A stretch of DNA of 34,751 nucleotides, taken from the IMG/VR virus record IMGVR_UViG_3300017987_000230, positions 1 to 34,751 of that record, one strand, 5' to 3'. Positions 1 to 34,751 of this stretch are shown here, piece after piece; the stretch's first letter is position 1, and each line of letters starts with the position of its first letter. The position numbers and the translations under genes were made by a program. Below the pieces are notes generated by a model. That model worked only from the letters and a program-made list of their open reading frames with translations. It did not search any database and had not been told where the DNA came from. The DNA comes from a virus.

Positions 1-11
1 GGTAAGAAAAC
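1..11. repeat. Left copy of 11-base terminal direct repeat (candidate cohesive end)
   Basis: The first 11 bases, GGTAAGAAAAC, are identical to the last 11 bases of the window. It is an A-rich word in an otherwise very GC-rich sequence. Joining the ends places it between AGCG (34737-34740) and CGCT (12-15), which are reverse complements. A symmetric cut AGCG^G on each strand would leave 11-nt 5' extensions, and filling these in gives exactly the two observed ends. An assembly overlap of a circular molecule is the alternative. Confidence 0.7.
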
Positions 12-36
12 CGCTTTGAAAGAGTCCGTTTGTTTT

Positions 37-50
37 GGGGAAATTTCCCC
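37..50. promoter_or_regulatory. Perfect 14-base palindrome near the left end
   Basis: GGGGAAATTTCCCC is a perfect palindrome 26 bases inside the left terminal repeat. Further hairpins follow at 117-130 (TCCGGC, two-base loop, GCCGGA) and 225-239 (GGCCGG, AAG loop, CCGGCC). No promoter with good -35 and -10 elements was found here. The position, between the end and the first packaging gene, fits a terminase recognition or packaging-control region, but this is inferred from position only. Confidence 0.4.
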
Positions 51-74: not shown

Positions 75-296
75 GTGAGGGTGTTTGTTTACTTCGACAA
101 GGTGCGCGGCGCTGAATCCGGCAAGCCGGACAGCTATCGAAAGTCGGTCGCGCTTGACGGCGGAGTCGGGCCGTCGCCCGGATGGGTCCGCGGGACGGCG
201 ACCGTTTTCCTCGATCGTGTCCGCGGCCGGAAGCCGGCCCGCGCCAGGGCCGAACGGATCATGTTCGAGATTCAGTGTATCGCGGGGGCCAGGTGA
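75..296 (+). CDS. Possible small ORF upstream of the HNH gene (doubtful)
   Basis: A reading frame open from an ATG at 30 ends at 294-296 in a GTGA overlap with the HNH gene. A GTG at 75 preceded by GAGGG is the better start and would give about 73 residues. The product is arginine- and glycine-rich with no recognisable domain, and the interval also contains palindromes typical of a cos-proximal region. The overlap is the only point in favour of a real gene. It is reported so that 1-292 is not left unexplained, but it may well be non-coding. Confidence 0.2.
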   Translation: MRVFVYFDKVRGAESGKPDSYRKSVALDGGVGPSPGWVRGTATVFLDRVRGRKPARARAERIMFEIQCIAGAR

Positions 297-661
297 CCAG
301 GCGCAAGGGGACCGGGGCCCGGCCGAAATGGGGGCCGTGCATTGTCTGCGGATCGTGGGTTGACGGGGACCCCGAACACCACGTCGTCAACCGCGGGATC
401 GGCGGCCGCCGGCGCAATCCTGGGCCGACCGTTCCGGCGCACGTCGGCTGTCACCGGCAGATACACGAGGACCCGGCACGAGCATACCGCGAGGGGTGGC
501 TCTATCGGGAGGGTTCGCCGGAAGGCCGCGCGTTACTTGGAGGGGCGACCAGGTCGGACCCCTGGGCGCTTCGATTGCTGTCTGCATACGTGAGGGGCGA
601 CCTTGAGCAAGTCGCAGAAATTCGGGGCCGGCAAGACGGCGACCGAGATTCGGATCGTTGA
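293..661 (+). CDS. HNH endonuclease-like packaging protein
   Basis: Predicted 122-residue HNH nuclease domain protein. A CxxC pair (CIVCG) is followed by an EHH histidine pair, a glycine/arginine/asparagine-rich turn and a terminal CHRQIH motif, the expected order for a zinc-stabilised HNH fold. Phage HNH proteins encoded beside cos and the terminase are known to work with terminase in cos cleavage and DNA packaging. Here the gene is the first convincing one after the left end, which matches that role. The start is a GTG at 293 in a GTGA overlap, chosen because the in-frame extension upstream is low-complexity. The last 59 bases overlap the next gene in another frame. A homing-type HNH nuclease is the alternative. 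Confidence 0.72.
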   Translation: MTRRKGTGARPKWGPCIVCGSWVDGDPEHHVVNRGIGGRRRNPGPTVPAHVGCHRQIHEDPARAYREGWLYREGSPEGRALLGGATRSDPWALRLLSAYVRGDLEQVAEIRGRQDGDRDSDR

Positions 662-1310
662 TCTCGATTCGATCGATCCGGCACCGTACAACCCGAGAGA
701 GATTTCGGCCGACGCACTCGACGGGCTCGGCGCGTCGATCGAGCGATTCGGATTCGTCGATTTCCTGGTCGTCAATAAGCGGACGAAACGCAAGGGGTGG
801 CCAGCCAAGTCACGACCGACAATCGTCGGCGGACACCAAAGGTGCGCGGCGCTTCTGGCCGCCGGCGCAGAGTCCGCGCCGGCCGTTATGGTGGACCTCG
901 AGGCGGCCGACGAAAAGGCACTCAATATCGAGTTGAACAATCCGGCAGTTGCCGGCGAATGGACCGCGGACCTGTTCGATCAAATCGACGAGCTCCGCGG
1001 CGAGCTCGGGAACGACGAGCTCGTCGAGCTCAAAATTCTACAACTCCGCGACGAGTTGACCGAGGAACCGCCGCCGGACAATGCGGGCGGCGGTCCATCG
1101 GTGACCAGGGTCGGCGACGCGTACCGGCTCGGGCCTCACGTTCTGATATGCGGTGATCCGGCAAAGACCGGCGTTCTCGATATGTTGTGCGACCTCGACC
1201 GCGATCCGCCGTTGACCGTCGTGGTCGCGACGGCAAAGAAAGCCGACGCCGTGGTCGCGACTTGGCAAGAACGGACCGGCCAGGTCGCAGAGCGGGCGGC
1301 GGACGCATGA
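603..1310 (+). CDS. ParB/Srx-like protein with vestigial DNA methyltransferase part
   Basis: 235 residues from a TTG start at 603, preceded by GAGGGG at 592-597. Residues about 15-130 form a ParB/sulfiredoxin-type domain with the IVGGHQR signature at 74-80 and a typical downstream NIELNN segment. Residues 174-185 (YRLGPHVLICGD) match the entry segment of the methylase half of phage ParB-methyltransferase fusions. Residues about 209-228 (ending VVATWQERTG) resemble the extreme C-terminus of such methylases. The catalytic core that should lie between them, including the DPPY-type motif and SAM-binding loop, is absent. This suggests an in-frame deletion leaving a DNA-binding or NTP-binding ParB module. 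The gene ends in an ATGA overlap with the small terminase. A role in packaging or DNA protection is inferred only. Confidence 0.75.
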   Translation: MSKSQKFGAGKTATEIRIVDLDSIDPAPYNPREISADALDGLGASIERFGFVDFLVVNKRTKRKGWPAKSRPTIVGGHQRCAALLAAGAESAPAVMVDLEAADEKALNIELNNPAVAGEWTADLFDQIDELRGELGNDELVELKILQLRDELTEEPPPDNAGGGPSVTRVGDAYRLGPHVLICGDPAKTGVLDMLCDLDRDPPLTVVVATAKKADAVVATWQERTGQVAERAADA

Positions 1311-1996
1311 CGAAAAAGAAGGCGGCCAAGCGAAAGACAAAAAAAAAGGCGTCTAAGCGCAAGGCGAAAAAGAAGGCGACGCCGCCAAATGGCAAGAACA
1401 ACGGATCGCCGAAATCGACTCCAGTCGAGCTCGCCCGCAAACGCCGGCACTTGGCGCTAATGAACAAGGTCGCCGGCGGAGTGACGTTGTCGCCCGTCGA
1501 AATGCGCGAGCTCGAAATCTATGAATCGGAACGGTTGCCGGACGGCGTCGTTCGAACACAAGCCGAACTTGCGCGCGAGCTCGGGATCACTACGCGCACA
1601 GTCAAGAATTGGGTTCGCGACGGCTGTCCGAAAACTGACGACGGCAATTTCAACGTCGAGGCGGTTCGCACTTGGCGGGACGATCGCGGCGACGATGATC
1701 TCGACGAGGAAGCGCGCGCGGCCGATGTGACCTGGAAGCGGCTTCGCGCCGCCCGCGCAAAACTGGAATATGACGAGGCCGCCGGCAAGCTCGTTCCGCG
1801 TGACGAGGTCGAGCGGTCACGCGTCGAGCGCGTCCTCGCCGTGAAAGAGCAACTTCTAGCGTTGCCGACTCGGATCGCGTCGCGACTTGCCGGCCTCGAT
1901 CCGCGACGCGTCGAGGTTGTCTTGACCGAGGAGCTCCGCCGCGTGATTGAAGAATTCGCGAGGGGATCGGTTGGCAATGAGGACGTCGAACCATGA
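1307..1996 (+). CDS. Terminase small subunit (Nu1-like)
   Basis: 229 residues. DNA-recognition subunit expected to bind near cos and recruit the large terminase. Residues 2-24 are almost entirely lysine, arginine and alanine, likely a nonspecific DNA-binding tail. A helix-turn-helix lies at about residues 84-106 (AELARELGITTRTVKNW), as in Nu1-type small terminases. The C-terminal half (about 140-225) is predicted alpha-helical and charged, suited to oligomerisation and contact with the large subunit. The ATG at 1307 is chosen over upstream in-frame ATGs because it forms an ATGA overlap with the preceding stop. The gene then overlaps the large terminase by ATGA at 1993. Confidence 0.8.
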   Translation: MTKKKAAKRKTKKKASKRKAKKKATPPNGKNNGSPKSTPVELARKRRHLALMNKVAGGVTLSPVEMRELEIYESERLPDGVVRTQAELARELGITTRTVKNWVRDGCPKTDDGNFNVEAVRTWRDDRGDDDLDEEARAADVTWKRLRAARAKLEYDEAAGKLVPRDEVERSRVERVLAVKEQLLALPTRIASRLAGLDPRRVEVVLTEELRRVIEEFARGSVGNEDVEP

Positions 1997-3885
1997 CCGA
2001 GGCGGCGAGCGTATGGACCGCGGCCGAGCGCAACGCCTGGGCGTTGCCGGCGCGCGCTACCGTGTCCGAATGGGCCGACGCGAATCGCGTTCTCGATCAA
2101 ATGACGAGCGCCGAGCCGGGGCAATGGTCAACGGATCGGACGCCGTATCTGCGCGAGATTATGGATTCGTTCAACGATCGTGGCGTCGAGGACATCGTGA
2201 TTATGAAGGCGACGCAAATCGGGGGCACGGAGGTCATTCTCAATTGTCTCGGGTACATGGTGGACCAGGACCCCGGGCCGGCCCTTGTCGTGTATCCGAC
2301 CGAGCCGCTCGCGCGCGGAGTATCCGAGGAACGGATCAAGCCAATGGTGCGGCGATCGCCGGCGTTGCGTCGTCACTTGACACCAAGGGCGGACGACTTC
2401 GCGGCGTTACGCTACCGATTCGATCGAATGGTCGTGTCGCTTGCGTGGGCCGGTTCGCCGGCGGCGGTCGCGTCGCGTCCGGTGCGAGTTGTGTTCCTCG
2501 ACGAAATCGACAAATATCCGAAGTTTGCCGGGCGCGAAGCGGACCCGATCAAACTCTCGATCGAACGAACAAAGACGTTTTACAATCGGAAACACGTCAA
2601 GCTATCAACGCCGACGACCAAAGAAGGGTACGTCTGGCGCGAGTATAAGGAATGTTGCGGGCTCCGATATTACGTGCCATGCCCGAAGTGTTCGCGCTAT
2701 CAGGCGTTGACGTTCGGCCGCGTGAAGTGGCCCGAGGACGAGCGCGATCCGAACGAGATCAAACGGCACGGGCTCGCCTGGTATGAGTGCGTGAAATGCT
2801 CGGCCAAGATCGAGGACGCGGATAAGCCCGAAATGTTGCGGCGCGGAGTGTGGGCGCCCGACGGCGCGTCCATCGATACGAAAGGCCGCATTCGATCGAA
2901 GGCCCATCGGCAGGACAAGGCCGAGAATCCGCGCCGCGGCTATTGGATCAATGCGATCTATTCGCCGTGGGTCACCTTCTCGATGGTGGCCGCGGAATTT
3001 CTGCGGTCGAAAGAACACCCAGAGTTGCTACAAAATTTCGTGAACTCGTGGCTCGCCGAGCCGTGGGAAGAAATCACCGAGGCGAAAGAGCCGGAGAAGT
3101 TGAAGGCACTAGCGACGACGACGCCGGCCGGCGTGGTGCCGAATGGCGCGCAACTCATAACGGCCGGAGTTGACGTCCAGAAAGACCATTTCTATTTATC
3201 GTTGCGGGCGTGGGGATTCCACGAAGAAAGTTGGCTTGTGCTGGCGATGCGCGTCGAGGAATGGTCCCAGGTGATCGACTACTGTTTCACGCGGGACTAT
3301 CCAAAAGAGTCCGGCGACGAGGCGCTCCCGGTTCGGCTGTCGTGTATCGATGCCGGCTACCGGACATCCGAAGTCTACGAAATCGCGCGGCGGTATCCCG
3401 ACGTTTGCCGGGCCGTGAAGGGACACGCGAATTTGCGCGGGCCTCAATTCCGCGTTTCGATGATCGATCGCAATCCATCCGACGGGCGGCCGATCCCCGG
3501 CGGCCTCAGACTATGGAACGTTGACGTTTCGTTTTTCAAAGACAAGATTGCGCGCCTCGTGGAAACAGAGCCAGGCGAGCCGGGCAATTGGCATTTACAC
3601 GAGGACCCGTCCGAGGAATATCTCCGGCAGTTTTGCGCCGAGAGAAAGGTAATCGATCGCAATCGAAAGACGGGGCAGGCCGTCGAAGAATGGCGACTCG
3701 TCGCCGCCGGCGCTCCGAACCATTATCTCGACTGTGAGGTGTACTCCGTGGCCGCGGCGACGATGCTCCAGGTTTCCGCACTCAAGAAAGCGGAAGGGCG
3801 CCGGATTCATCGGCCGGAGCCGCGGCGCAAGAAGGGGCGCTCGTGGCTCGGTAGCAACCGTGGGGGGTGGCTCCGTGGCGAGTGA
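1993..3885 (+). CDS. Terminase large subunit (lambda GpA family)
   Basis: 630-residue packaging ATPase and nuclease. Residues 72-80 (KATQIGGTE) are the variant Walker A loop of GpA-type terminases, and residues 166-172 (VVFLDEI) are Walker B with the catalytic glutamate. Two CxxC pairs at 230/233 and 266/269 look like a zinc-ribbon insert. The C-terminal nuclease shows acidic residues in the right contexts: D394 (AGVDVQ), D453 (CIDAGY) and D580 (HYLDCEV). Length is close to lambda GpA. GpA-family enzymes are often cos-cutting, which fits the terminal repeat and neighbouring HNH gene. Translation is coupled to the small subunit by an ATGA overlap. Confidence 0.95.
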   Translation: MTEAASVWTAAERNAWALPARATVSEWADANRVLDQMTSAEPGQWSTDRTPYLREIMDSFNDRGVEDIVIMKATQIGGTEVILNCLGYMVDQDPGPALVVYPTEPLARGVSEERIKPMVRRSPALRRHLTPRADDFAALRYRFDRMVVSLAWAGSPAAVASRPVRVVFLDEIDKYPKFAGREADPIKLSIERTKTFYNRKHVKLSTPTTKEGYVWREYKECCGLRYYVPCPKCSRYQALTFGRVKWPEDERDPNEIKRHGLAWYECVKCSAKIEDADKPEMLRRGVWAPDGASIDTKGRIRSKAHRQDKAENPRRGYWINAIYSPWVTFSMVAAEFLRSKEHPELLQNFVNSWLAEPWEEITEAKEPEKLKALATTTPAGVVPNGAQLITAGVDVQKDHFYLSLRAWGFHEESWLVLAMRVEEWSQVIDYCFTRDYPKESGDEALPVRLSCIDAGYRTSEVYEIARRYPDVCRAVKGHANLRGPQFRVSMIDRNPSDGRPIPGGLRLWNVDVSFFKDKIARLVETEPGEPGNWHLHEDPSEEYLRQFCAERKVIDRNRKTGQAVEEWRLVAAGAPNHYLDCEVYSVAAATMLQVSALKKAEGRRIHRPEPRRKKGRSWLGSNRGGWLRGE

Positions 3886-4297: not shown

Positions 4298-4510
4298 ATG
4301 GCCGCAACGGCCCAGGAAATGCTAGACGCCGTGAACGATGCGATCAAAGCGCAACTCGACGGCGGGGTCGTCAAGAGCTATAGCGTCAATGGTCGCCAGT
4401 TGTCGAGGTATAGCCTTGACGAATTGGTGAGACTCAGAAACACGTTGAAGGCTGACGTTGCCGCGTCCGGAACTGGTCGCAACAAGGCGCGATTCGATAG
4501 CCCAACATGA
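4298..4510 (+). CDS. Head-tail connector, gpW-like
   Basis: 70 residues. The small size, the position directly before the portal and the layout (N-terminal helix, a short beta segment ending in NGRQLSRYS, then a helix LDELVRLRNTLKAD) match the gpW family, which plugs the portal and prepares heads for tail joining. The ATG at 4298 follows a strong GAGGGGTGAGA ribosome-binding site. An upstream in-frame ATG at 4247 lies inside the promoter and is rejected. The gene ends in an ATGA overlap with the portal gene. Confidence 0.7.
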   Translation: MAATAQEMLDAVNDAIKAQLDGGVVKSYSVNGRQLSRYSLDELVRLRNTLKADVAASGTGRNKARFDSPT

Positions 4511-6132
4511 ACGACCGGGAACGACGGGCCTATCTCGCGGCAATGCACAAGCCAACATTCGGCGGCCGATTCGGTCGCATGATCGACAACGCGCTCGGCG
4601 TCCTTGCGCCTCGGTTCGCATTGAAGCGCGAAGCGGCCAGGTATGCGAGGGATCAATTCCGGCAGTTGACCGCCGGCGCGTATCGCGGAGCGAACTCTAC
4701 TCGCCTCAAGAACGCATGGACGACGACGAGCGGATCGGCAGACCAGGACATTCTGCCGGACCTCGACACGCTCCGGGAACGCTCGCGAGAGTTGAATCGT
4801 GACGACGGGTTCGCGTGCGGGATCACCGAGTCGATCGTGACGAACGTCGTCGGCGACGGGATCAAACCTCAGAGCCGAGTTGATCCCGAGGCCGTAGGGC
4901 TCTCACAGTCTGCGGTCGATGAATTCCAGAAGCGGGCCGAGGACGCCTGGAACCGGTGGATCGAATTCGCCGACTTGACGGCCGCTCAGGATTTCTACCG
5001 GCTACAATCACTTGTGGAACGGAAGCGCCTCGAGGATGGCGACGTCCTGGCGATGCCGCTAATGGACGGCGTCCCGGGGAGTGACTTCTCGCTCGCAATC
5101 CAGATTATCGAAGCGGACCGACTGGCGACTCCGACCGGCAGGACCGGAAGCGTTCGCGGCGGTGTCGAGATAGACAGCATGGGTCGTCCGGTCAAATACT
5201 ATATTCGCAAGGCCCATCCGGGAAATACCACGATCGGCAACGGAACGGCCTCGCGGCAGTTTGCCGAGGTCGAGGCGTTCAACTCGCAAGGCCGGCGAAA
5301 CGTGTTTCACTTGTTCGACCGCGAGCGGCCCGAACAGAATCGCGGCGTTCCTCTGTTCTCGTCCGTCCTGTCGCTTTTTCACGATCTCTCGAACTACGTC
5401 GAAAGCGAGCTCGTGTCCGCGCGGGTAGGCGCGTGCTATTCGGCGTTTATCACCAAGAGCGATCCAGCCGCCGCTATGTCGGCCGCGGCGAGCGGCGCCG
5501 CCGAGTCGGACGGGAGCCGGCGCGAGGGGCTCGAACCAGGGTTGATCGAATATCTCGCGCCCGGCGAATCGGTGACGTTCGGCAACCCGACCAGGCCGGG
5601 CGCGACGTTTGACGCGTTCGTGATTCGCATTCTCCGCGCAATCGCCGCCGGCGTTGGTATCTCTTATGAGCTCGTCGCGCGCGACTATTCTAAGGTGAAC
5701 TTTTCGAGCGCCCGCGCCGCGATCCTTGAGGATCGCCGCGGGTTCCGGGTCCGCCAGGCGCGGCACGTCGCGCAATTCAGTCAACCGGTATGGGAAATGG
5801 TCCTTGAAGAAGCGTTCCTCCGGGGCGAGCTCGGGACCGTACCGTTCATGCAGAACAGAGACGCGTTCACGAATGCGGTTTGGAATCCGCCCGGTTGGCA
5901 ATGGGTCGATCCGTTGAAAGAGGTCCAGGCGGCAGAGAAGGCGCTCTCGTTGAACCTGACGACGCTCGCCGATGAGTTGTCCTCGCAAGGCAAAGATTAC
6001 GAGGAGGTTCTCCGCCAGGTCGCAAAGGAACGCGCGCTAATGAACGAACTCGGTATCAAACAAGCGCCCGCGTCGGCGCCGGCATTCGCACGGTCAACCC
6101 CGGCAAAGGACAATGGCGGGAGTCGGTTCTAA
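4507..6132 (+). CDS. Portal protein (lambda GpB family)
   Basis: 541 residues, close to the lambda portal length. It should form the dodecameric ring at one capsid vertex through which DNA is packaged and the head joined to the tail. The N-terminal region with GAYRGA and the later NRDDGFACGITESIVTNVVGDGI segment are characteristic of lambda-type portals, as are the central SYELVARDYSKVNFSSARAA and the downstream WNPPGWQWVDPLKE segments. It sits between the gpW-like protein and the head protease, as in lambda. The stop overlaps the next start as TAATG. Confidence 0.93.
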   Translation: MNDRERRAYLAAMHKPTFGGRFGRMIDNALGVLAPRFALKREAARYARDQFRQLTAGAYRGANSTRLKNAWTTTSGSADQDILPDLDTLRERSRELNRDDGFACGITESIVTNVVGDGIKPQSRVDPEAVGLSQSAVDEFQKRAEDAWNRWIEFADLTAAQDFYRLQSLVERKRLEDGDVLAMPLMDGVPGSDFSLAIQIIEADRLATPTGRTGSVRGGVEIDSMGRPVKYYIRKAHPGNTTIGNGTASRQFAEVEAFNSQGRRNVFHLFDRERPEQNRGVPLFSSVLSLFHDLSNYVESELVSARVGACYSAFITKSDPAAAMSAAASGAAESDGSRREGLEPGLIEYLAPGESVTFGNPTRPGATFDAFVIRILRAIAAGVGISYELVARDYSKVNFSSARAAILEDRRGFRVRQARHVAQFSQPVWEMVLEEAFLRGELGTVPFMQNRDAFTNAVWNPPGWQWVDPLKEVQAAEKALSLNLTTLADELSSQGKDYEEVLRQVAKERALMNELGIKQAPASAPAFARSTPAKDNGGSRF

Positions 6133-9355: not shown

Positions 9356-9380
9356 ATTCTCCAGTAGAAAGGGGGGAGCT

Positions 9381-9644: not shown

Positions 9645-9656
9645 CGAGGGGAAGCC

Positions 9657-11100: not shown

Positions 11101-11114
11101 CGGAGGGTTGAGGA

Positions 11115-12494: not shown

Positions 12495-12505
12495 CGAGAG
12501 CCGCG

Positions 12506-12530
12506 GCCCGGCCTACTAGGGCCGGGCTTT
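12506..12530 (+). terminator. Terminator after the tail tube gene
   Basis: GCCCGGCC (12506-12513) pairs perfectly with GGCCGGGC (12520-12527) around a six-base loop, followed by only three T. The T run is short, so it is probably leaky, which would reduce transcription into the tail chaperone and tape measure genes. Confidence 0.65.
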
Positions 12531-13232: not shown

Positions 13233-13269
13233 CGATATGCGCCGGCTACCTTACGGGGCAGTTGGCGCA
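13223..13269 (+). promoter_or_regulatory. Programmed -1 ribosomal frameshift site with stimulatory stem
   Basis: The heptamer A AAA AAA (13223-13229) is in the correct zero-frame register and is immediately followed by the TAG stop. After eight bases, TGCGCCGGCT (13238-13247) can pair with AGTTGGCGCA (13260-13269), ten pairs including two G-U, with a 12-base loop. Slippery site, spacer and stem have the classical arrangement for expressing a G-GT type fusion. Confidence 0.85.
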
Positions 13270-13609
13270 ACGGTGCGAGGCGTGTCAACGTGAACCAGGG
13301 CTCCGGAAAAAGTGGGGTTGCATTGAGGCGACGAAAGAACCGGTGTTCGTCCTGGAATGTTTCGAGTGCGCCAACGAGGGGTGCGACGAGTGCGGCGGCC
13401 GCGGTTGGATTCCATACCACGAATGTCCCGCACGGGAAATGGAAGGCATGGACGAGATCGCGATCGCATGGCGGCACTACAAGAACGGGTTTCTCCCTGA
13501 GTCCGGCGGCACAATGGATCAGCCGGCGAAGTTGCTCGAATCGGTGTTGTTGCTCGACCGTGAAGTCAGTCGCATAGAGGCGGAGCACGCGAGAAAGGCT
13601 AGTAGCTAA
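13229..13609 (+). CDS. Frameshifted T-like extension of the tail chaperone
   Basis: Read only after a -1 shift at 13223-13229, it adds about 126 residues to the 156-residue chaperone (about 282 in total). No good start codon or ribosome-binding site lies at its beginning, so it is not expected to be made alone. The extension is cysteine-rich, with CEAC, then C, CFEC, and CDECGGRGW resembling one CxxCxGxG unit of DnaJ, and ends in a helical segment. In lambda-like phages the T domain binds the tube protein and the shifted product is a minority. The extension ends in TAATG at the tape measure start. The zinc-type cysteines are unusual. Confidence 0.8.
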   Translation: MAICAGYLTGQLAQRCEACQREPGLRKKWGCIEATKEPVFVLECFECANEGCDECGGRGWIPYHECPAREMEGMDEIAIAWRHYKNGFLPESGGTMDQPAKLLESVLLLDREVSRIEAEHARKASS

Positions 13610-15711
13610 TGCCAGGAAAAACGCTCGATATCCGAGTCACCGTCCGGGACCTCGTGTCCGGCAACATGAAGCGAATCGGCGCGTCGATTCGGAACATGGC
13701 GTCGGGCGCGCGGAGCGCGATCGGCGGTCTTTCGAAAACGGTCTTTTCGCTCCGGGGCGCCCTGGCCGCGGCCGGTATCGGGCTCGCCGCAAAGAAAATT
13801 CTCGGCGCGGCCGACAACGTCGAAACCTGGCGAACGCAACTCCAGGCGTTGATCGGTGACCAGACAAAGGCGAACCAGACGCTTCAACGAATGCGCGACT
13901 TCGCGGCAGAGAGTCCGCTCGCTACGAAAGACGTGATCGACGCGTTCGTCAAGTTGCGCGCGGTCGGCATTCCGGCGGCCGAGGACGTGACGAAAAAGCT
14001 CGGCAACGTGGGCCTCGTGTTCAACAAGTCGGTTGACCAGGTCGCGAACGCGTTTGTTTCGCTCAACACTCGGACGCTCCGCGACTTCGGAATCGAGCTC
14101 AAACGCACCGGCAAGACCGCAAAGGTTATGTCGGGGGACGTCGAGGTTTCGGTCGGCAACACAACGGCGGAGATCAGAAAGGGCATTCTGGAAATCTTCG
14201 AGAAGCGATTTCCGAACGCTATCGAACTCGTGAAAAACGATTTCGGCACGAAGATGGCTGTAATGCAATCGGGCTTTTTCGAGTTGTTCGCCGACCTCGG
14301 GGAACGGATCATGCCGACGGTGAAAGCGATCATCGATGGCGTGGCCGATTTCGTCGGCAAGAACCGGAAGTTTCTTCTTGACCTGATTCAAGTAATCGCG
14401 CGCGACTTCGGGCTCGTCGGCGAAAACCTGGCGTTCACGTTCGAGGACGTATCCGACATTCTCAAAAACTTGACCGTTAAGTTTTTCAATGGGTTGAAGT
14501 CGATTCAAATCATGTGGAACGGGATCACGTTCCAGGTTCGCAAGGTGGCCGAACTCGTCCTCAAGGTGTGGGAGTTTCTCGTCGGCAAGGTGCAAGGCGC
14601 GATCAACAACAATCTCGAAACCTGGAAACAGATCAAAGTCGCCGTTGCGTCGTTGCTCGCGAAGTTGCTCCAGGGGCTTTCCGGAATCGCGTTCAAGTTT
14701 GACGAGGCGTTCTCGGACAAGCTACAGAACGCCGCGCGCGATATGCGGAAGATGGCCCGCGACATTGGCAACAACGAAGAAAAGACAAAGGATTGGACGA
14801 GCGCGATCGCAAAGACGCGCGAGGAGCTCCGCCGGGCGGCAAGCGAGGACCTCAACGACATTCGAAAGAAGTCGAGCGAGATCGCGTTCTCGTGGGAGGA
14901 TATGAAACGCAAGGTCCGCGGCGCGCTCTCAAAAGAGAATCTCACGGCCGGCCCCGAGGGTGAGCCGGCCGCGCCGCCGGCCGAGGGTGCGGTTCCGGAG
15001 GGCGTCGGCGTACCGCCTGAGATAAAGCCGCCCGAGGAATCGCCCGAGTTTCTCGAACGGAAAGCGATTCTCGAAAAGATCAAAGAGCTAAATATCGAAC
15101 ACTTGAACGAGAACAACCGACTCGTCGATCGCGCGCTCAAGTTGGAGGGGAAGCAGCGGGTTAATTTCTTAAACGCGATGGAAGCGTTCGAGCGCACGAA
15201 GCTACAGAGGCGGTTGACGATCGCGTCGAATTTCATTTCGGCCGGGCTTACCTTGGCCCAGGCCGGGGGCGCGAAGTCGGCGAAGCTGGCAAAGGCGCTC
15301 GCTTTGACGCAAGCGATCGTGTCGGGGATTCAGGCGGTACAAGGGACGATGAGTCAACCGCCGTATTGGCCGGCGAACGCCGGCCTCGTGGCGAGCGTGG
15401 CGGCGGTCCAGGCCGCGAACGTGGCCGCGATCGCGGCGACGACGTTCGGCGGCGGTGTCGGTGGCGGGGGCGGCGGCGGGTCGCTTCCGGCAACTGGCGG
15501 CGGGGCCGCGGGCGTGGCCGCGCCGGCCGCAACCGGGCCGGCGTTCGGTGGTGCGACTCCGGAGCCGCCCGAGCCGGGCGGTCGCGAGCGGACGATTCAG
15601 TTGATCGCCGAGGGGCAGAAGGGGCCGATTTTCTTCGAGAGTCCCGACGCTCTCGCGCAATGGTGGAACGACACATTCGAGAGAGCAAACGAGGCGGGGG
15701 TGTTGGGCTAA
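13609..15711 (+). CDS. Tape measure protein
   Basis: 700 residues. Starts with a strand-like segment typical of tape measure N-termini (TLDIRVTVRDLVSGNMKRIG), followed by a hydrophobic region (about 45-65) and long helical stretches with regular hydrophobic spacing to about residue 445. A proline/glutamate-rich linker, another helix and a Gly/Ala-rich C-terminus follow. Using the usual rule of about 1.5 angstrom per residue, the tail would be near 100 nm, which is an inference. It is located directly after the chaperone pair, and its stop overlaps the next start. Confidence 0.9.
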   Translation: MPGKTLDIRVTVRDLVSGNMKRIGASIRNMASGARSAIGGLSKTVFSLRGALAAAGIGLAAKKILGAADNVETWRTQLQALIGDQTKANQTLQRMRDFAAESPLATKDVIDAFVKLRAVGIPAAEDVTKKLGNVGLVFNKSVDQVANAFVSLNTRTLRDFGIELKRTGKTAKVMSGDVEVSVGNTTAEIRKGILEIFEKRFPNAIELVKNDFGTKMAVMQSGFFELFADLGERIMPTVKAIIDGVADFVGKNRKFLLDLIQVIARDFGLVGENLAFTFEDVSDILKNLTVKFFNGLKSIQIMWNGITFQVRKVAELVLKVWEFLVGKVQGAINNNLETWKQIKVAVASLLAKLLQGLSGIAFKFDEAFSDKLQNAARDMRKMARDIGNNEEKTKDWTSAIAKTREELRRAASEDLNDIRKKSSEIAFSWEDMKRKVRGALSKENLTAGPEGEPAAPPAEGAVPEGVGVPPEIKPPEESPEFLERKAILEKIKELNIEHLNENNRLVDRALKLEGKQRVNFLNAMEAFERTKLQRRLTIASNFISAGLTLAQAGGAKSAKLAKALALTQAIVSGIQAVQGTMSQPPYWPANAGLVASVAAVQAANVAAIAATTFGGGVGGGGGGGSLPATGGGAAGVAAPAATGPAFGGATPEPPEPGGRERTIQLIAEGQKGPIFFESPDALAQWWNDTFERANEAGVLG

Positions 15712-16583
15712 TGGGACGACCGTTGATCGGCTACGAAGATTTCTACCAGTTGGCGAACGTCGTCGTCACCGATCCCTCGGAGGAATCCGGGTTCCCGGCG
15801 ACGCGACTACGCGATCACAAGTCATATGATCTATGGAAACCGCTCGGAACCGATGGGCCGAAAACCCATTACTACACGGTGGACCTTGGCGACGGCACGG
15901 GCGGCACGCCAGGCCCGACCGGCGTCGATTACTTCGCGTGCATCAATCACACGCTCAAGAGCTCGAACGCGCAGTTTTTTATTGAGCTCTCTACCGACAA
16001 TTTCGCTTCGGTAGTGATAACGCTCGGGTTCGGGACGCCGACGTTTGATCGTTCGTTCTGTTTCAGCGTACAAGACGCGGCGTTGCCGGCCTGGCGCTAC
16101 TGGCGCGTCCGGATCGATAACCTCGACGCGACCGAATATGCGAACCTTGCGATCGGCGAAATCCGCGTCGGTCGCGGTGTCGTGCTGCCGGAGGGCGTCA
16201 ACTGGCGCGGGTTCGATCCGTGGAACTATCTGCCGCGTTCGCGTGAACACTTCTCCGCGGCGGGTGTTCCAATCCGAAGCGTGACCGAATCGATCGGACG
16301 CGATCAGCGGTGCCCGGTCCAGAACATTACGCGGGCGTTCCTTGAGGACAATACCGAAAACACGGGCTTTCGGTGGTGGCATGACAACGTAGCAACTAAA
16401 GGCGGGTTCTCGGTGTTCTCGTGGTTTCCAGAGCCGCTCGGCTGGACCTACAACACGGCGTTTAACTGTCTGTGGGGTTCGGTGAAGGGCGGCGACGTGG
16501 ACGTCAAGGCAAAGCGCCCGGACGCCCAGGGCGGATTGTGGGACCTCAATTTCACCGTGACGGGACGGGGTGAGTTGGAGTAA
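15711..16583 (+). CDS. Distal tail protein-like
   Basis: 290 residues, located between tape measure and tail hub. Residues about 20-160 look like a galactose-binding-type beta sandwich: the ARLRDHKSYDLWK-type opening, a DYFACINHT strand, and the AWRYWRVRIDN...IAIGEIRVG strand pair common in phage distal tail proteins. The C-terminal half ends with a beta-rich LWDLNFTVTGRGELE segment also common there. The role in baseplate assembly is inferred from position and fold cues. TAATG overlaps exist on both sides. Confidence 0.6.
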   Translation: MGRPLIGYEDFYQLANVVVTDPSEESGFPATRLRDHKSYDLWKPLGTDGPKTHYYTVDLGDGTGGTPGPTGVDYFACINHTLKSSNAQFFIELSTDNFASVVITLGFGTPTFDRSFCFSVQDAALPAWRYWRVRIDNLDATEYANLAIGEIRVGRGVVLPEGVNWRGFDPWNYLPRSREHFSAAGVPIRSVTESIGRDQRCPVQNITRAFLEDNTENTGFRWWHDNVATKGGFSVFSWFPEPLGWTYNTAFNCLWGSVKGGDVDVKAKRPDAQGGLWDLNFTVTGRGELE

Positions 16584-18799
16584 TGGCGCACGCCGACTAC
16601 ATAGCGGCCGCGAACGCTTCGAGTCAGTTGGTACTCGATTATATCGAGATCGATCTACCATACTCGGGCGGGACCGGGAGCCAGGGCAACACGTTTCGTA
16701 TTGGAACCGAACACTCGGTCCCGGTCGCGAAGCGCCTCGGCGTGAATATGTCTCCTTATCTCATTAGCGCCGGCGGCGGATCGACGACGCGGATCAAGCC
16801 CGGGTTGCAGACCGACCGCGCGTCGATCACGATCTCCGTAAAGGACGACGAGAATCCGGCCGACTTCGACGCGGCGGTCGTGGAGTTGACGTCGGGTTCG
16901 TCGTTCTGGCGACGCCTGTTCGTCGCATATCCAAATTGGCACCGATCGCCGGTGCGCGTCTATTCGTTTTTCGACACGGCGGACCTCGACGATTTGAGTA
17001 AGGCCGAGCTCATGTTCTCGGGCGTCCTCGAAGATTATCGGTTCAACGCGGACAAGACCGTGTCCCTCATCGTGCGCGACCCGCTCGAATTCAAGGACAT
17101 GAAGGTTCCGACGCCAATCTCGACCGATAACGATTTGAACGTCGCGATCACCACGACGACACAAACGACGGTTACGCCGGACGACGATTCGGAATTCGTG
17201 GACCCGCCGAACGACTGGCCGTCGGTGGATTTCCTTCCGCCGCTCGTCAAGATCGACAACGAATTGATCGCCTATTATGGCGTTAGCGCGGGCGCTCTCC
17301 AGGTGGCGCGCAATTACGCCTACTGGTCGTCAACGTTTGCTAATGCCGTTTGGTTCAAACAGGTAGGAGCGACCGTCTTCGACAATCAACGGCTCGGGCC
17401 TTACGGATGGGTTGACGCGGCGGAACTGACTTGCCCTCAAAACGGTTCGTGTTGGCAGGTATCCGCATTGGCGGCCACGAGCCAGAACGCGAACGCGTCG
17501 ATTTGGGTCCATGAACACCCCGACAATCCTGGCGCCGCGTTTAATCTTGTCATTTGGGATTCCGGAACGGTGACCGAGATCGCTTCAATTGCGATTACGG
17601 CAGCGCCCTATTGGGTGCGCTATGACGTGCCGAAAGCGTTTACCGGGGCGGCCGGCGGGAATGTGGCGTTCGGGGTCAACCGCCTCGTCGCACCGACGGC
17701 GAAAATCTATATCGCGGCCGGCCAAGTTGTGCCGGCACTCGCGAAAGAAAACTATGTCCCGACGCAAGCGACGCCCGGGGCCGCAATCGGTCGCGGCGCC
17801 TATGGAACGACCGCGGCAACGCATAGCGTCGGCGCCGACATTACAACTCAGATCGAATACCGAGAGCCGTTCACGACGGCAAACGGCCTGCATCCTATCT
17901 ACTGCAAGCGCGACCTCTGCAACCGATTGCAGATTCCGACGGCGCTCGTCGATGACGCGGCATGGGGCGTCGAGCTCTCTTTCTCGCAAGGCGACCGCGC
18001 AAGGCGAACACTCGCGGAGCCGCACGACGGGAAAAAGCTAGTCAAGGAATTGCGCGAACAATTCCTCGTCGATATCTGGGTCGGTCGCGATGGGCTCCTG
18101 AAATGTCGTTGGTCCTGGCGGACCAGGTTCGCGACCGAGTCGCTTCCGAAGCTGACGCACGCTCGCGACCTCATGGCGCCCCCGCTATCGAACAGCGGCA
18201 AGGAATCCCGGTTGACCGAAATCCCGATCTACTATGATTTCTCGGGCGACTCGGAAGGCCGAAGCGACGTCCCGGATCAATACGATACGTGGGTGATTTT
18301 TAGGAACAAAGACGCGGAAGGCCCGGACAACCGCTCCCGCAAGGTACAAGAGATTTACTCGCGTTGGATTTACCAAGGGGCCGAGGCGTCGTCATTGTGG
18401 GGGCGCATGAAACAGCGCCGCCTTGACGGGATGCGCCGGATCGAACGGCTACCGGTGACCTATACTCGCTTTGGTGACTTTGACGTCGGCGACGTGGTGC
18501 AACTCGATACGCCGTGGATCGTGCGCGATCTCTCGGGCGCGGCCGCAAACGACGATCTCACCGGCTGGCAAGTTGTCGCGATGAAATATCGCGGCCTGGC
18601 CGACGACTTCGAGGTGTCGCTTTTGGAACACGTCACGACTCGGCCGGCATTCTTCGCGCCGAACAACGACCTCGAAAGCCCGGCGAATCCGTTTCCGGAC
18701 TATGACAACGCGAGCGACGCCGAAAGGTTCTATGCGTTTTTCTGTACGAACTCGGGCACCGTGGGAACCGACCAGGACCCGCCATATCTTTTCCAGTAG
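16583..18799 (+). CDS. Tail hub / tip protein with inserted lectin-like module
   Basis: 738 residues. N- and C-terminal parts resemble phage tail-hub proteins: MFSGVLEDYRFNADKTVSLIVRDPLE near 145-170 and VDIWVGRDGLLKCRW near 490. A conserved segment that normally reads as one unit (L.V.RGAYGTTAATHS) is split. After LQVARN near residue 242 comes a module of about 155 residues, beginning FANAVWFKQVGATVFDNQ, that looks like a carbohydrate-binding (CBM4/9 or laminin-G type) domain, and the hub sequence resumes with GRGAYGTTAATHS near 400. The protein probably touches the host surface. The inserted module may bind a surface glycan. Confidence 0.75.
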   Translation: MAHADYIAAANASSQLVLDYIEIDLPYSGGTGSQGNTFRIGTEHSVPVAKRLGVNMSPYLISAGGGSTTRIKPGLQTDRASITISVKDDENPADFDAAVVELTSGSSFWRRLFVAYPNWHRSPVRVYSFFDTADLDDLSKAELMFSGVLEDYRFNADKTVSLIVRDPLEFKDMKVPTPISTDNDLNVAITTTTQTTVTPDDDSEFVDPPNDWPSVDFLPPLVKIDNELIAYYGVSAGALQVARNYAYWSSTFANAVWFKQVGATVFDNQRLGPYGWVDAAELTCPQNGSCWQVSALAATSQNANASIWVHEHPDNPGAAFNLVIWDSGTVTEIASIAITAAPYWVRYDVPKAFTGAAGGNVAFGVNRLVAPTAKIYIAAGQVVPALAKENYVPTQATPGAAIGRGAYGTTAATHSVGADITTQIEYREPFTTANGLHPIYCKRDLCNRLQIPTALVDDAAWGVELSFSQGDRARRTLAEPHDGKKLVKELREQFLVDIWVGRDGLLKCRWSWRTRFATESLPKLTHARDLMAPPLSNSGKESRLTEIPIYYDFSGDSEGRSDVPDQYDTWVIFRNKDAEGPDNRSRKVQEIYSRWIYQGAEASSLWGRMKQRRLDGMRRIERLPVTYTRFGDFDVGDVVQLDTPWIVRDLSGAAANDDLTGWQVVAMKYRGLADDFEVSLLEHVTTRPAFFAPNNDLESPANPFPDYDNASDAERFYAFFCTNSGTVGTDQDPPYLFQ

Positions 18800-18808
18800 G
18801 GGCAACCG

Positions 18809-19966
18809 ATGGCCGCACCAACCGACGCTTTTCAGATTATCACCGACGCCGAGATCGCCGCGGGGCAACCGATCACGACCGGATGGGCGAACAAGGTTCA
18901 AGAATCATTGAACAACGTCTATTCGCAACTCGTGGGCGAGCCGCTCGCGAGTCCGCCATATACGCCCGCCCAGGCGCACGACCACGACGGCGTAAATTCT
19001 AAGCTCCAGGTTTCGCCGGCAATCTATGGGTCGGGTGCCGATGGCGCGCTGTCTGTCCCGTCCGGAACGACGACGCTTCTCTCGAACCGAACCTATAGCT
19101 TCACGTCGATTTCGGTCGCGGCCGGAGCGATTCTTCGATTCGACAACGGGTTTTGCAAGGTCGGATGTACGGGCGACGCCGACATTTTCGGAACGCTCGA
19201 AGTCTACCACCAGGGAACGGGCGGCGTCGGCGCTGTTCCGGGACCTGGCGGCGCGGGGCTCCCCGGTGCGTTCTCGGTGTTTGGCCTGTCTGGTGGTGGC
19301 GCCGGCGGAACGAACGGCCTTCCGGTGACCGACACGTCGGGCGGCGGCGGTGGCGCTGGCGTTTGGGGTAACGGCGGGGCGAGTAGTGCCGAGGGGACGA
19401 GCGCGCCCGCGGCCGGCGGCGTGTCTCAATTCACGGTCGATACGTTGAACGCGGTCACGGTGTCGGCCGCCGAAATGTATCTCATGCAGTACATTTACAC
19501 GCTATGGCGCGCGGCCGGCGGCGGCGGCGGTACGGGCGCTGGCGGCGACACTCCGCGAAACGGGGGGTATGCCGGCGGGAATGGAATCATTGCGATCAAG
19601 GGCGATCTCGACGGCAACTCGACCGGCGTCGTCAAAGTTGACGGCGGCGGCGGCCAGGCCGGAACCGGTGGCGATGAATCCGGGGGCGGCGGCGGCGGCG
19701 CCGGCGGCCTTTGGGGTATCGTCGGTGGCGTCGTTGACAACATCAGTTGGACCGCGAACGGCGGTGCCGGCGCGACGGGCAATCCCGGGAACGCCGGGGG
19801 CGGCGGCGGCGGCGGCGGCGGCATTTCAAAGCTAATGTCTGGCGGCGCGCAAACTGGCGTGACCGTGGCCGCGAACGGCGGCGCGGGCGGCGGCGGCGGA
19901 ACGGCCGGCGGAGCCGGAAGCGCGACGGCGATCGCGTCCACAGAGCCAGAGCGGTTCTGGTACTAA
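18809..19966 (+). CDS. Glycine-rich tail adhesin / fiber
   Basis: 385 residues. The first 130 residues are a normal beta-rich attachment domain with an AHDHDGVNS segment (histidines 57 and 59) typical of fiber metal-binding sites. The rest is about 250 residues of glycine-rich sequence with many runs of four to nine glycines separated by short strands, ending in aromatic EPERFWY. Glycine-rich repeats of this kind form polyglycine-II sandwiches in receptor-binding adhesins. Position at the end of the tail module supports host recognition. The repetitive GGCGGC coding sequence is prone to expansion or recombination. Confidence 0.75.
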   Translation: MAAPTDAFQIITDAEIAAGQPITTGWANKVQESLNNVYSQLVGEPLASPPYTPAQAHDHDGVNSKLQVSPAIYGSGADGALSVPSGTTTLLSNRTYSFTSISVAAGAILRFDNGFCKVGCTGDADIFGTLEVYHQGTGGVGAVPGPGGAGLPGAFSVFGLSGGGAGGTNGLPVTDTSGGGGGAGVWGNGGASSAEGTSAPAAGGVSQFTVDTLNAVTVSAAEMYLMQYIYTLWRAAGGGGGTGAGGDTPRNGGYAGGNGIIAIKGDLDGNSTGVVKVDGGGGQAGTGGDESGGGGGGAGGLWGIVGGVVDNISWTANGGAGATGNPGNAGGGGGGGGGISKLMSGGAQTGVTVAANGGAGGGGGTAGGAGSATAIASTEPERFWY

Positions 19967-19979
19967 GAAAGGGGCAGAA

Positions 19980-20513
19980 ATGAGCATGACGTTTCCAGAG
20001 ATACCGGGGCCGGAACCAGAGCCGGAACCGACGCCAGGCCCGACGCCGGCCGCTCCCGCACACAAGCGGTTTGTGATCGTCAACGGGGATTATGACCAGG
20101 TCGAGCGAACGCAATATGACGTTTCGCAAGCGGCCGCGGCGACGGCGGCCGGGGTGCCCGAGGCCCAGGCCATCGAGAACGAGAGCATTCCGGAACATCG
20201 GCTCGCGGTCCGGAAGGTGAACGACGAGCCGGAACTCTACGAAGCGCCGGCGCCGACGCCACCGGCACCGTGGGAGATCGAGCCGCTCGCGTCGATCCTG
20301 GCCCGGCTCCAGTCGGGCGCGGCCACGACTCGCGAGGCCGTGTATTTCGGGGCGGAGCTCGGGCGCTATGCGGGCCGGGCGCCGATCTCGCTCGCGGAAA
20401 CGGACAGAGAGAAACGGCTCGCGGAGTTGCGGCCGAAAATCGCGGGAGGGACCGCGACACAAGCCGAGCGCGACGAGGCGCTCGCATTGTTGATCGGGCC
20501 GACGCCCGAATAG
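19980..20513 (+). CDS. Unknown protein after the adhesin (possible fiber accessory)
   Basis: 177 residues with a proline/glutamate-rich N-terminus (about 7-30), a small globular part with KRFVIVNGDYDQVERTQYD, a proline-rich linker and a C-terminal helical region. No family is recognised. Position directly after the adhesin would fit a fiber assembly or capping protein. The ATG follows GAAAGGGGCAGAA. Confidence 0.55.
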   Translation: MSMTFPEIPGPEPEPEPTPGPTPAAPAHKRFVIVNGDYDQVERTQYDVSQAAAATAAGVPEAQAIENESIPEHRLAVRKVNDEPELYEAPAPTPPAPWEIEPLASILARLQSGAATTREAVYFGAELGRYAGRAPISLAETDREKRLAELRPKIAGGTATQAERDEALALLIGPTPE

Positions 20514-26083: not shown

Positions 26084-26433
26084 ACCGACCGGCCGAAATG
26101 CCGATGAGCGGCCCGGAATTCGAACGAGAGAAAGAGCGGACGCGGAAGGCGATCAGGGCAAGCGCCGCGGCACAAGGCATGGTCCCTGGCGAGACATTCG
26201 ACGAGCTCGTGACGCACTCCGCCGACTTGGTCAAAGACGCGGCGGGCGTGGCCGCCGAAATCCGCGCGTTGCGCGACCAGGTCGAACGGTTCCGCCGGAT
26301 TGTAGCGGCGGCGCATTGGGAGCGAGAAGCGGCGATGCAACGGGGCGACGTCGCGGGGCTTGAAATCGTGGGGCGTGTTCTGGCCGGGACCGACAAGGGG
26401 TTTCCCGGGGAAAGGGAGAGCGATGCCAAGTAA
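26080..26433 (+). CDS. Unknown helical protein upstream of the large coiled coil
   Basis: 117 residues with predicted helices (EFEREKERTRKAIRASAAAQG, then VAAEIRALRDQVERFRRIV). The heptad-like spacing suggests it could form a coiled coil with the large neighbour. The start follows AAGGGGGAGCT, the leader type also seen at 9381 and 12762. The last 11 bases overlap the next gene. Confidence 0.6.
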   Translation: MNRPAEMPMSGPEFEREKERTRKAIRASAAAQGMVPGETFDELVTHSADLVKDAAGVAAEIRALRDQVERFRRIVAAAHWEREAAMQRGDVAGLEIVGRVLAGTDKGFPGERESDAK

Positions 26434-28897
26434 AGACACGGACTTGGGCGACGCGAAGTTGTACGGGCACGAGGGCGCCCCGGAATGGGCAGAGGTTCAC
26501 AAGTGGCGCGACCGGGCGAACGCGGTAGCGGACGAACTCGACGAGGCGCGCGAATTGCTCGACAAATTGCGCGACGAGCGAGATCGCGAGCGCGTAGAAC
26601 GTGGCGAGCTCGATATCGCATATGGGAAGGCGCTCGCCGCCCGCGACGAGTATCGGTCAAGGTCGGAGATCGCCGAGGCGGAGCTCGGCCGGGTCCGCGA
26701 GGAACGCGACGACGCGATTCGCAACCGAGGATGGCAACCCGACCGGTCGATTCAGATTCGCCGCGAACGTGACCAAGCGAACGGGCGGGCGGATCGCCTC
26801 GCACTTGAATTGCGGGAAGCGACCGAGGGGCTAGAAAGCGCACAACATCGGGCAGACATGGCCGAAGTGGAGCTCTCGCGCGTTCGGTCAGAGTGTCACG
26901 CCCGGAACGAGCGCGGGCAACGCCTGGTTCTCGAAATGGAGCGCGAGCGCGACGAGGCATACAATCGCTTGCGCTCGGTCATGGATTTTCCGCCGGGAAC
27001 AATCGGCGGCGACCAGATAACGGCACTGTGCACGGCTCGCGACGAAGCCGAGCGCGCCCGCGACTTGGCCGTGAACGAGGTCGAGCAATTGAAACGTCAG
27101 AATCGCAACTGTCGAAACAGAATTGAGGATTTGCGCGGACAGAGAAATGGAGAGCGCGCAACCGTTAGGTGGTTGCGGGAAGAATGCGAAAGGCTACGCG
27201 GGGAAAAGGACAAGGCCGAGGCGATATCAGATTCCGCGTACCAGTCTGCAAGCGCACAAATCCGTAACGCGTCGGAGTGGTGCGACGAAGTCCGAACGGC
27301 AAACGCAGAGCGCGAAGCCGCTCTTGCATATGCCGAAAAAATGCGGGTAGAACGCGACGAAGCCCGGGCCGGAGCGCGGAAGTCGCTCGAATCCCTGGCG
27401 TTCGCCGGCGACCACGAGTTGCGAACCGCGTTGACGGGGGCCCGTGAGCGAGCCGACCGGTTGCACGAGGAACGCGACAACGCAAAAGAGGCGGCTCGGA
27501 TCAATGCTGAATGTCGGGATCGGCGGTCGCTTGAATTGAGGCAGGCCCGGGAGCGGATCGCGGAACTCAAAAAGCAACTGCGATCCTATGGCGTCAACTG
27601 GCCGGGCGAGCGTGACCAATACGAGGAACGGATCGGCGTGCAGGTCGGATTGATTGAGGACGCCAGGCGCGAGCGCGACGAGGCGCAAGCGAAAATCACG
27701 ACTGCGGAAATGGCGGCCGCGGCCGCGGAGGTCCGCGCCGAGCAAGCCGAGACTCGGGCGAACCAGGCGGAAACGACGGCGCGGTTCGCAATGGCGAGCA
27801 AGGACAAGGCCGCCAGGGAAGCCAAGCCCCGAGTATTGGCGATGCTCGACGAGGCGAGGGACAAGGCGGGGGCCGACCTTTTGTCGGAGCTCGACCAGGT
27901 CGTCAAGCGCGGCGATCGCCTGGCCGAGTTGATCTCGCGGCGGTTCCACGATCCCGAGGACACGGGCGGTCTTTGCGGCTCGTGCAATGGGCTTCTCGAC
28001 CACGGGCGCGACGCGATTTGTTGCGAGTGCGCCGACGAGCCGGAATTCGTCGATCGGAAGCTCGGCGAACGCGAGCTCCGCGAGGCCCGCGAGGAATGGG
28101 GCCGGCTGTCCGACGAGGTCGGCAAGCTGAAACAGGAGAACGCCGCGCTCCGCGATCGGGCAGACCAATCGGCCGAGAACGCCCGTCATTGGATCAAGCG
28201 CGTCCGCGAATTGGAGAATCAGCGCGACACGGCCGCACAATCCCAGGCGATCGCAGAACACGCGCTCGACCAGGTCGTCGGGCGTGACCAGGCCGACAAG
28301 TGTCGTGAGGCCGCGGCCGGAGATCGCCAGCCGGTTCGAGTCGAGGGGCAGTATCCGTGTCGTTGCGCTGACGGACACCCGGAGATCGGATATCGGGGCG
28401 AACTGGACGACTGTCCGGCGTGCGTGTTGTTGGCCGAATTGGTCGCGCGTGATCGGCGTCCAGTCGAACCGGAGAACGTCGAGACATACGAGCGGGACAT
28501 AACCGACGACGGCGAAAAATTGCTCGACGACGCCGGCGAGACGAAAGCGTCGGACACCATTCCGCCAGGTTGTGTCGTGGTTCCGTCGGCTCGACTGCAT
28601 ACGCTCGAACACGACCGCGAGGAATGGGCGAAGAAAGCCAAGGCGGCCGTGGCCAAGGCCGAGCTCGTGGACGAGGCCAGGCGCGAGGCGGAGCAAGCCG
28701 TCGAGGCCGGCGCCCGGGTGAAAGAGGTTCTCGACGCCGCGATCGAGTCTCACGAGAAATACCGCAAGGACACGAACGAGACTCATCGGTCGTTGTTGGA
28801 GCGCGCGACACGGGCCGAGCGCCGCCTGTCGGCGCACCATGACGATCTCGGCGACGGCCGGTGTTCGGCGTGCGCGCGTGTCGAGGGGGGCGAGTAG
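26423..28897 (+). CDS. Large coiled-coil protein with embedded cysteine pairs
   Basis: 824 residues, the largest gene in the window and outside the structural modules. Nearly the whole length is charged heptad-like helix with many ER, RD and EE segments and recurring RDEARRERDEA-type units, predicting a long coiled coil. Three cysteine clusters interrupt it: C518/C521 with C533/C536 (a zinc ribbon), C646/C648 with C664/C667, and a C-terminal pair C814/C817. No Walker motifs are seen, so it is not an SMC/Rad50 ATPase. It could be a filament, scaffold or host-protein trap. It overlaps the next gene by one base. The function is unknown. Confidence 0.8.
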   Translation: MPSKDTDLGDAKLYGHEGAPEWAEVHKWRDRANAVADELDEARELLDKLRDERDRERVERGELDIAYGKALAARDEYRSRSEIAEAELGRVREERDDAIRNRGWQPDRSIQIRRERDQANGRADRLALELREATEGLESAQHRADMAEVELSRVRSECHARNERGQRLVLEMERERDEAYNRLRSVMDFPPGTIGGDQITALCTARDEAERARDLAVNEVEQLKRQNRNCRNRIEDLRGQRNGERATVRWLREECERLRGEKDKAEAISDSAYQSASAQIRNASEWCDEVRTANAEREAALAYAEKMRVERDEARAGARKSLESLAFAGDHELRTALTGARERADRLHEERDNAKEAARINAECRDRRSLELRQARERIAELKKQLRSYGVNWPGERDQYEERIGVQVGLIEDARRERDEAQAKITTAEMAAAAAEVRAEQAETRANQAETTARFAMASKDKAAREAKPRVLAMLDEARDKAGADLLSELDQVVKRGDRLAELISRRFHDPEDTGGLCGSCNGLLDHGRDAICCECADEPEFVDRKLGERELREAREEWGRLSDEVGKLKQENAALRDRADQSAENARHWIKRVRELENQRDTAAQSQAIAEHALDQVVGRDQADKCREAAAGDRQPVRVEGQYPCRCADGHPEIGYRGELDDCPACVLLAELVARDRRPVEPENVETYERDITDDGEKLLDDAGETKASDTIPPGCVVVPSARLHTLEHDREEWAKKAKAAVAKAELVDEARREAEQAVEAGARVKEVLDAAIESHEKYRKDTNETHRSLLERATRAERRLSAHHDDLGDGRCSACARVEGGE

Positions 28898-34377: not shown

Positions 34378-34629
34378 TTCGACCGAGCGGCAGAGGGGGA
34401 GGGTTGGCGCTGTTGCCAGCCGTGCGTCGGCCGGTGCCGCCTGGGCCCGTAGGATGCCCGAGAGCGGCGCCAGGATATAGGGGTGCATTGGATCGGCGTT
34501 CGGGATGCGGCGTCGGTGGCGACGTGCTGGCGGCCGCGCTGGTGGCCCTGGGCGCCGCCCGGAGCTCGGCCCGCATTCGAGGGCGATCGTCGGGGGCGGC
34601 CCGCGTGGGGTCGTCCCGGTTCCCGGGAG

Positions 34630-34653
34630 GGGGGAGGGGGTATCCCCTCCCCC
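34630..34653 (+). terminator. Strong G/C hairpin near the right end
   Basis: Ten G/C-rich base pairs (including one A-T) close a GTAT loop. The 3' arm can alternatively pair further right as CCCCCTGG/CCAGGGGG (34649-34656 with 34662-34669), and another stem GGGGG/CCCCC follows (34668-34672 with 34676-34680). There is no T run, so this may be a structural signal rather than a terminator. It is located about 90 bases from the right end. Confidence 0.4.
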
Positions 34654-34740
34654 TGGGGGGACCAGGGGGGGGCTACCCCCTGCATTTGCATTCCATTTGC
34701 ACGCCGGCGCGGGTCCTTCCCAGGGGGGATTACAGTAGCG

Positions 34741-34751
34741 GGTAAGAAAAC
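34741..34751. repeat. Right copy of 11-base terminal direct repeat (candidate cohesive end)
   Basis: Identical to positions 1-11. It is preceded by AGCG (34737-34740), the reverse complement of the CGCT that follows the left copy (12-15). See the left copy for the cos interpretation. Confidence 0.7.

Follow-up and report, generated by a model that had tools for sequence, protein, structure and literature searches.

Terminal repeat and joined junction

The question raised by this locus is whether the two ends of a virus contig are the ends of the mature phage chromosome and, if so, how they are generated. The window, i.e., the whole stretch of DNA analysed here, is an entire virus record (34,751 bp), so that both window ends are contig ends. 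When they were compared, the longest exact terminal repeat was GGTAAGAAAAC (11 bp, at 1-11 and 34741-34751), and a search of both strands found no third copy in the window. Joining the ends gives the junction AGCG^GGTAAGAAAAC^CGCT, with AGCG at 34737-34740 and CGCT at 12-15 (in a longer view, ...GATTACAGTAGCG^GGTAAGAAAAC^CGCTTTGAAAG...), and this junction holds a 5-bp dyad, AGCGG-GTAAGAAAA-CCGCT, centred exactly on the 11-bp repeat. The repeat and its AGCG/CGCT borders, described in an earlier note on this DNA, are therefore exact. The two halves of the site read as follows:

34737..34751, + strand: right half of cosN, the AGCG flank followed by the 11-nt GGTAAGAAAAC (right-end copy, read as overhang fill-in); from the sequence, with a CG^ flank as in lambda ACG^GGGCGG
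1..15, + strand: left half of cosN, GGTAAGAAAAC (read as the left 5′ extension) followed by CGCT; from the sequence, with the nick followed immediately by GG, a feature shared with lambda, P2 and the marine relatives

Given the base composition of the window, the chance of an 11-bp terminal repeat is 5.5e-7 and that of the 5-bp dyad 1.3e-3 (empirical rate in the window, 1.9e-3 per position). Terminal repeats made by assemblers pile up at k-mer lengths, e.g., 55, 77 and 99 bp (PMC8116208), and therefore the 11-bp repeat is not a usual assembler overlap. Note that an exact search for GGTAAGAAAACCGCT returned 96 stretches, with a DNA relation to the window only in its own record; the junction string recurs unchanged in one contig (L078), which does not match the window at the DNA level, so that the identity was read as chance.

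A cosQ-like element at the spacing found in lambda

cosQ was first defined in lambda-like enteric phages, and published descriptions give it as a conserved 7-bp site, whose letters are not printed in the text. At its right end, the lambda record carries GGGTCCTTTCC, which we take to be cosQ, and the window carries a similar element at the same 30-nt spacing to the nick:

34711..34721, + strand: cosQ-like element GGGTCCTTCCC, its start lying exactly 30 nt ahead of the terminal repeat, and shared with lambda and relatives

Indeed, the lambda record reads GGGTCCTTTCCGGTGATCCGACAGGTTACG^GGGCGGCGACCT and the window reads GGGTCCTTCCCAGGGGGGATTACAGTAGCG^GGTAAGAAAAC, and in each of them exactly 30 nt separate the start of GGGTCCTT from the nick. 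By chance, GGGTCCTT would fall on this single position with a probability of 1.7e-5, and the pattern GGGTCCTTYCC has a single match in the window against 0.06 expected in shuffles. Among lambda-like phages, cosQ shows no apparent natural variation (PMC4669245). The window thus has the arrangement of a lambda-type cos, with a cosQ-like sequence upstream of the nick at the conserved spacing (GGGTCCTTCCC, 34711, 30 nt), and this element, which the earlier note had missed, is the strongest internal evidence on the nature of the ends.

These numbers bear directly on chance or assembly artefact, i.e., a contig that stopped at two copies of an 11-mer or an overlap created by the assembler. In a set of millions of contigs, chance alone should indeed produce a few end repeats of 11 bp, but the 5.5e-7 per record has to be multiplied by the further, independent ~1.7e-5 for GGGTCCTT at the exact lambda position, assembler repeats fall at k-mer lengths (PMC8116208), and the same anatomy is found in relatives (see below), which together leave this explanation hardly credible.

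Left-end genes and terminase

The genes next to the left end are as follows:

293..661, + strand: HNH-like protein (phrog_740 HNH endonuclease, E 3.7e-7), not needed to explain the ends
603..1310, + strand: ParB-N domain protein (Pfam ParB_N; phrog_498/620), with homologues upstream of terS in relatives
1307..1996, + strand: terminase small subunit, TerS (phrog_57 terminase small subunit, E 7e-25)
1993..3885, + strand: terminase large subunit, TerL, GpA type (PF05876, 1-247/247, E 3.8e-75; PF20454, 2-290/294, E 3.5e-65)
4507..6132, + strand: portal protein, lambda family (PF05136, E 3e-107)

From the left end, the gene order is HNH-like, ParB-N, terS, terL, head-tail adaptor, portal, head maturation protease and Mu gpT-like major head protein, and this packaging and head module resembles that of lambda, also in being read in the direction leading away from the left end. 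The domain coverage places TerL among GpA-type terminases, with complete ATPase and nuclease domains, which confirms the GpA-type terminase that the earlier note had placed near the left end. The ParB-N protein (235 aa) has as its best PHROG a 633-aa DNA methyltransferase family, matched over the first third only, and judging from this match the product of 603-1310 seems to correspond to the ParB portion, the methyltransferase being absent. Elsewhere in the window, an 845-aa ORF (26360-28897), rich in charged residues and with a coiled-coil look, had no PHROG match.

Nick flanks, symmetry and candidate cosB

The nick flanks CG^ and ^CG are highly conserved among lambda-like phages (PMC4669245), and the predicted window nicks are flanked accordingly (GCG^GGTAAGAAAAC^CGC), together with a partial two-fold symmetry of cosN. 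In lambda cosN, 10/16 bp are symmetric (PMC9026076); within the counted span we found six symmetric pairs in the window vs five in lambda, the latter reproducing the published 10/16. The rotational symmetry resembling lambda cosN, on which the earlier note had relied, is therefore real; however, it has no diagnostic value, because the stagger is retained in relatives whose nick region shows little symmetry (the GGTAATTGGACAG variant and the large phage G024, see below).

As for the region where TerS may bind, one feature was found near the left end:

37..50, no strand assigned: 14-bp perfect palindrome GGGGAAATTTCCCC, with four others of this kind in the window

From its position and symmetry, this palindrome is a candidate protein-binding site and possibly part of a cosB (TerS-binding) region. 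For orientation, R3 occupies bp 50-65 in lambda and 48-60 in N15, and N15 has a single R site and lacks an IHF site (PMC9026076). In the left 300 bp of the window, no clear direct repeats were found, and the 14-bp palindrome was the only candidate for a cosB. At the other end, ~360 bp without a credible gene (34378-34740), G-rich and with runs of G and C, precede the right end, and folding of this non-coding stretch (361 nt) revealed nothing unusual (z -1.1).

Relatives with ~50% identical TerL

In the nearest relatives, the cosQ pattern was the route to the site. Among 27 distinct relatives with ~50% identical TerL, 26 displayed GGGTCCTTY 102-181 bp upstream of parB (in the order parB-terS-terL), and in the remaining one (L098) the element lies further upstream of parB. 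The spacing from GGGTCCTTY to G^GGT was 28-30 nt in 25 of these relatives, while controls in the same relatives gave one match for the reversed pattern and none on the opposite strand. In addition, GGGTCCTTCCCAGGGGGG is common, letter for letter, to the window and several of these relatives. Nothing consistent was found in them for the dyad or the 11-mer, and none of their contigs ended at the cos-like sites, as the contigs cross the region.

Four contigs encoding a TerL ~50% identical to that of the window (L180, L181, L183 and L184) belong to Omnitrophota genomes, which, as a sequence-based clue, may give a hint of the kind of host. Searches for a relative closer than ~50% TerL identity, or for a junction-crossing (circular or prophage) form of the window phage, found none; megablast of window positions 1-20000 against named phages gave no match, and a short lambda-Nu1-like peptide, used as query for lambda-like records, added nothing.

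Contig ends in distant relatives

Ends of the same anatomy are observed repeatedly in more distant relatives. In marine GpA relatives (~33% TerL identity), the right end of 10 contigs falls precisely 13 nt after ...CGTG, and that of one further contig at 14 nt. GGT[TA]ATT marks the precise beginning of many left-end contigs (with 1-3 additional bases in a few cases), and contigs crossing the site hold a single copy of the 13-mer. One of these phages (G001, 32,983 bp) has the 13-mer at both ends, and the sequence variant GGTAATTGGACAG (L240/L245/L254-L256) also ends at 13 nt, with little symmetry at the nick. Throughout this marine group (L155-L177, L196-L256), AGGTTCTTCT stands upstream and TAGCGACAG downstream of the nick of the 13-nt fixed end. 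A SAR86 single-cell contig (L191) holds one marine-group copy, which suggests SAR86 as the host of that phage.

A search with GGGTCCTTCCNNGGGGG revealed at least five contigs whose end lies 39-43 nt from the start of this pattern (41 in the window), and one (L364) in which the distance is 29 nt. Among the contigs listed as stopping near the cosQ pattern, a GpA terminase was seen only in G024 (L369, L405; 76,583 bp); the others have their far end elsewhere and are fragments or unproven cases, with no GpA terminase in the part covered. The left end of G024 repeats its last 11 bases, GGTGTTTAGGT, and its GpA terminase starts at ~752. Its geometry is that of the window, with cosQ GGGTCCTTCC 30 nt upstream followed by the 11-nt repeat, and with little symmetry at the nick; G024 probably represents a large cos phage whose genome is complete in this record. 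No phage paper for GGGTCCTTCC was present among the literature matches listed.

Fixed ends with a short shared terminal sequence (up to ~20 nt) are thus found both in the window (11 bp) and in relatives (13 and 11 bp). This matters for headful (pac) packaging, in which the contig ends would be set elsewhere or by coverage: permuted ends would not coincide with a G^GGT at cosQ spacing and an 11-bp repeat, fixed ends are common to the relatives, and no point in support of this explanation was found, which makes it exceedingly improbable.

The marine relatives also bear on the HNH-like gene, which the earlier note had counted in favour of a cos mechanism and which is no evidence for the cut, because marine relatives with 13-nt ends start terS ~66 nt from the end, leaving no room for an HNH gene. 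The presence of this gene near the left end could instead recall an HNH-assisted 3′-overhang cos of the HK97 type. However, end repair removes 3′ overhangs, so that the ends would lack the overhang sequence and not share it (PMC5557969), and both window ends carry the 11-mer; moreover, the terminase is of GpA type, and in marine relatives with demonstrated ends, terS is too close to the end to leave space for an HNH gene. A 3′ cos therefore has almost nothing to recommend it.

Origin of the window ends

Altogether, the window ends are, with high confidence, the mature virion chromosome ends of a lambda-type cos phage, whose 11-nt extensions would be 5′ in polarity. The cos site with filled-in ends proposed in the earlier note is upheld by the cosQ-like element, the flanks, the GpA terminase and the contig ends of the relatives. 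Points that weigh against it are that contigs of the ~50% TerL relatives run through their sites, that searches gave neither a closer relative nor a junction-crossing form, that no cosB was recognised beyond the candidate palindrome, that terS is placed unlike that of lambda, and that one cosQ-pattern contig (L364) stops at 29 nt. Note that 3′ overhangs are cut back during library preparation and that a shared end sequence is what filled 5′ overhangs give (PMC5557969); therefore, the shared repeat fits an 11-nt 5′ extension. In the P2 record, too, the cos sequence (19 nt) is found at each end.

A genuine 11-bp double-stranded terminal duplication (a very short DTR), made by extension synthesis, would leave the same sequence as a filled 5′ overhang. 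However, the PhageTerm authors knew of no DTR shorter than 131 bp and of no cohesive end longer than 19 nt (PMC5557969), the 11-bp repeat is far below the ~130 bp or more of T7-type DTRs, and in lambda, with cosQ at the same spacing, the GpA terminase produces 5′ ends of 12 nt. We consider such a duplication very unlikely.

For the lambda-type cos, we infer the 5′ polarity, the actual nicking, the cosB region and the role of cosQ in this phage as follows. The GpA-type terminase would recognise cos on concatemers, aided by the cosQ-like GGGTCCTTCCC at 34711, while TerS presumably binds a putative cosB in the first ~300 bp near the left end. The top strand would be nicked before 34741/1 (AGCG^GG, before GGTAAG) and the bottom-strand nick would follow after 11 nt (C^CGCT), which would leave complementary 11-nt 5′ extensions. 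At infection, the ends would anneal and form a circular genome with one copy of the 11-mer, whereas end repair during sequencing would fill both extensions and place the 11-mer at both contig ends. It is thus very likely that the window record is a whole genome with true ends. The cos site itself is ordinary and well supported, and the phage has no close named relative.

Wider significance

The site is of a known kind (a lambda-type staggered cut), and its signal marks the ends of many related phages. As read from sequence comparison, a cosQ-like element with its spacing recurs in distant GpA phages, and contigs with the GGGTCCTTYC signature include ones assigned to Omnitrophota, Negativicutes and others. 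On a larger scale, GGGTCCTTYC, 28-30 nt and G^GGT might mark the ends of GpA-terminase phages in general, across bacterial phyla and beyond the lambda-like enteric group, so that nicks and stagger (11-13 nt) could be read from sequence and many unflagged records would be complete; on this broader proposal, we find the balance even. Our results provide evidence for a variable stagger (11, 12 and 13 nt) and emphasize that dyad symmetry can go while the stagger stays.

The closed-genome call of CheckV needs a terminal repeat of at least 20 bp, and terminal repeats of 11-13 bp fall below this limit (PMC8116208). The combination of cosQ, ~30 nt, G^GGT and an 11-13-bp repeat could therefore find complete genomes of uncultured cos phages, and the same signal could measure cohesive ends without culture. 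In the literature covered, with subscription journals mostly outside its scope, no statement was found of the recurrence of cosQ in distant GpA phages or of 11-13-bp repeats below the closure limit.

Comparison with known systems

A close parallel is lambda cos: there as in the window, GGGTCCTTYCC lies 30 nt before the top-strand nick, the nicks have CG^...^CG flanks, GG follows the nick, the two-fold symmetry is partial, the terminase is of GpA type and the portal belongs to the lambda family. In contrast to lambda, the window has a stagger of 11 nt (12 nt in lambda), lacks recognisable R sites, holds HNH and parB genes between cos and terS, and encodes a TerS that is a distant homologue, with terS 1.3 kb from the end (bp 191 in lambda). 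P2 cos resembles the window in having the overhang at both record ends and GG after the nick, and differs in its 19-nt stagger and in the lack of GGGTCCTT in the 21 nt read upstream of the P2 nick. The marine GpA phages (IMG/VR) differ from the window in their 13-nt stagger, a terS ~66 nt from the end and a TerL only ~33% identical, but share fixed ends beginning GGT, AGGTTCTTCT ~25 nt upstream and, in G001, a repeat (13 bp) at both ends. Finally, although G024 (L369) shows little nick symmetry, a TerL ~29% identical and a genome twice as long, it has, like the window, an 11-bp terminal repeat, cosQ GGGTCCTTCC 30 nt upstream and a GpA TerL near the left end.
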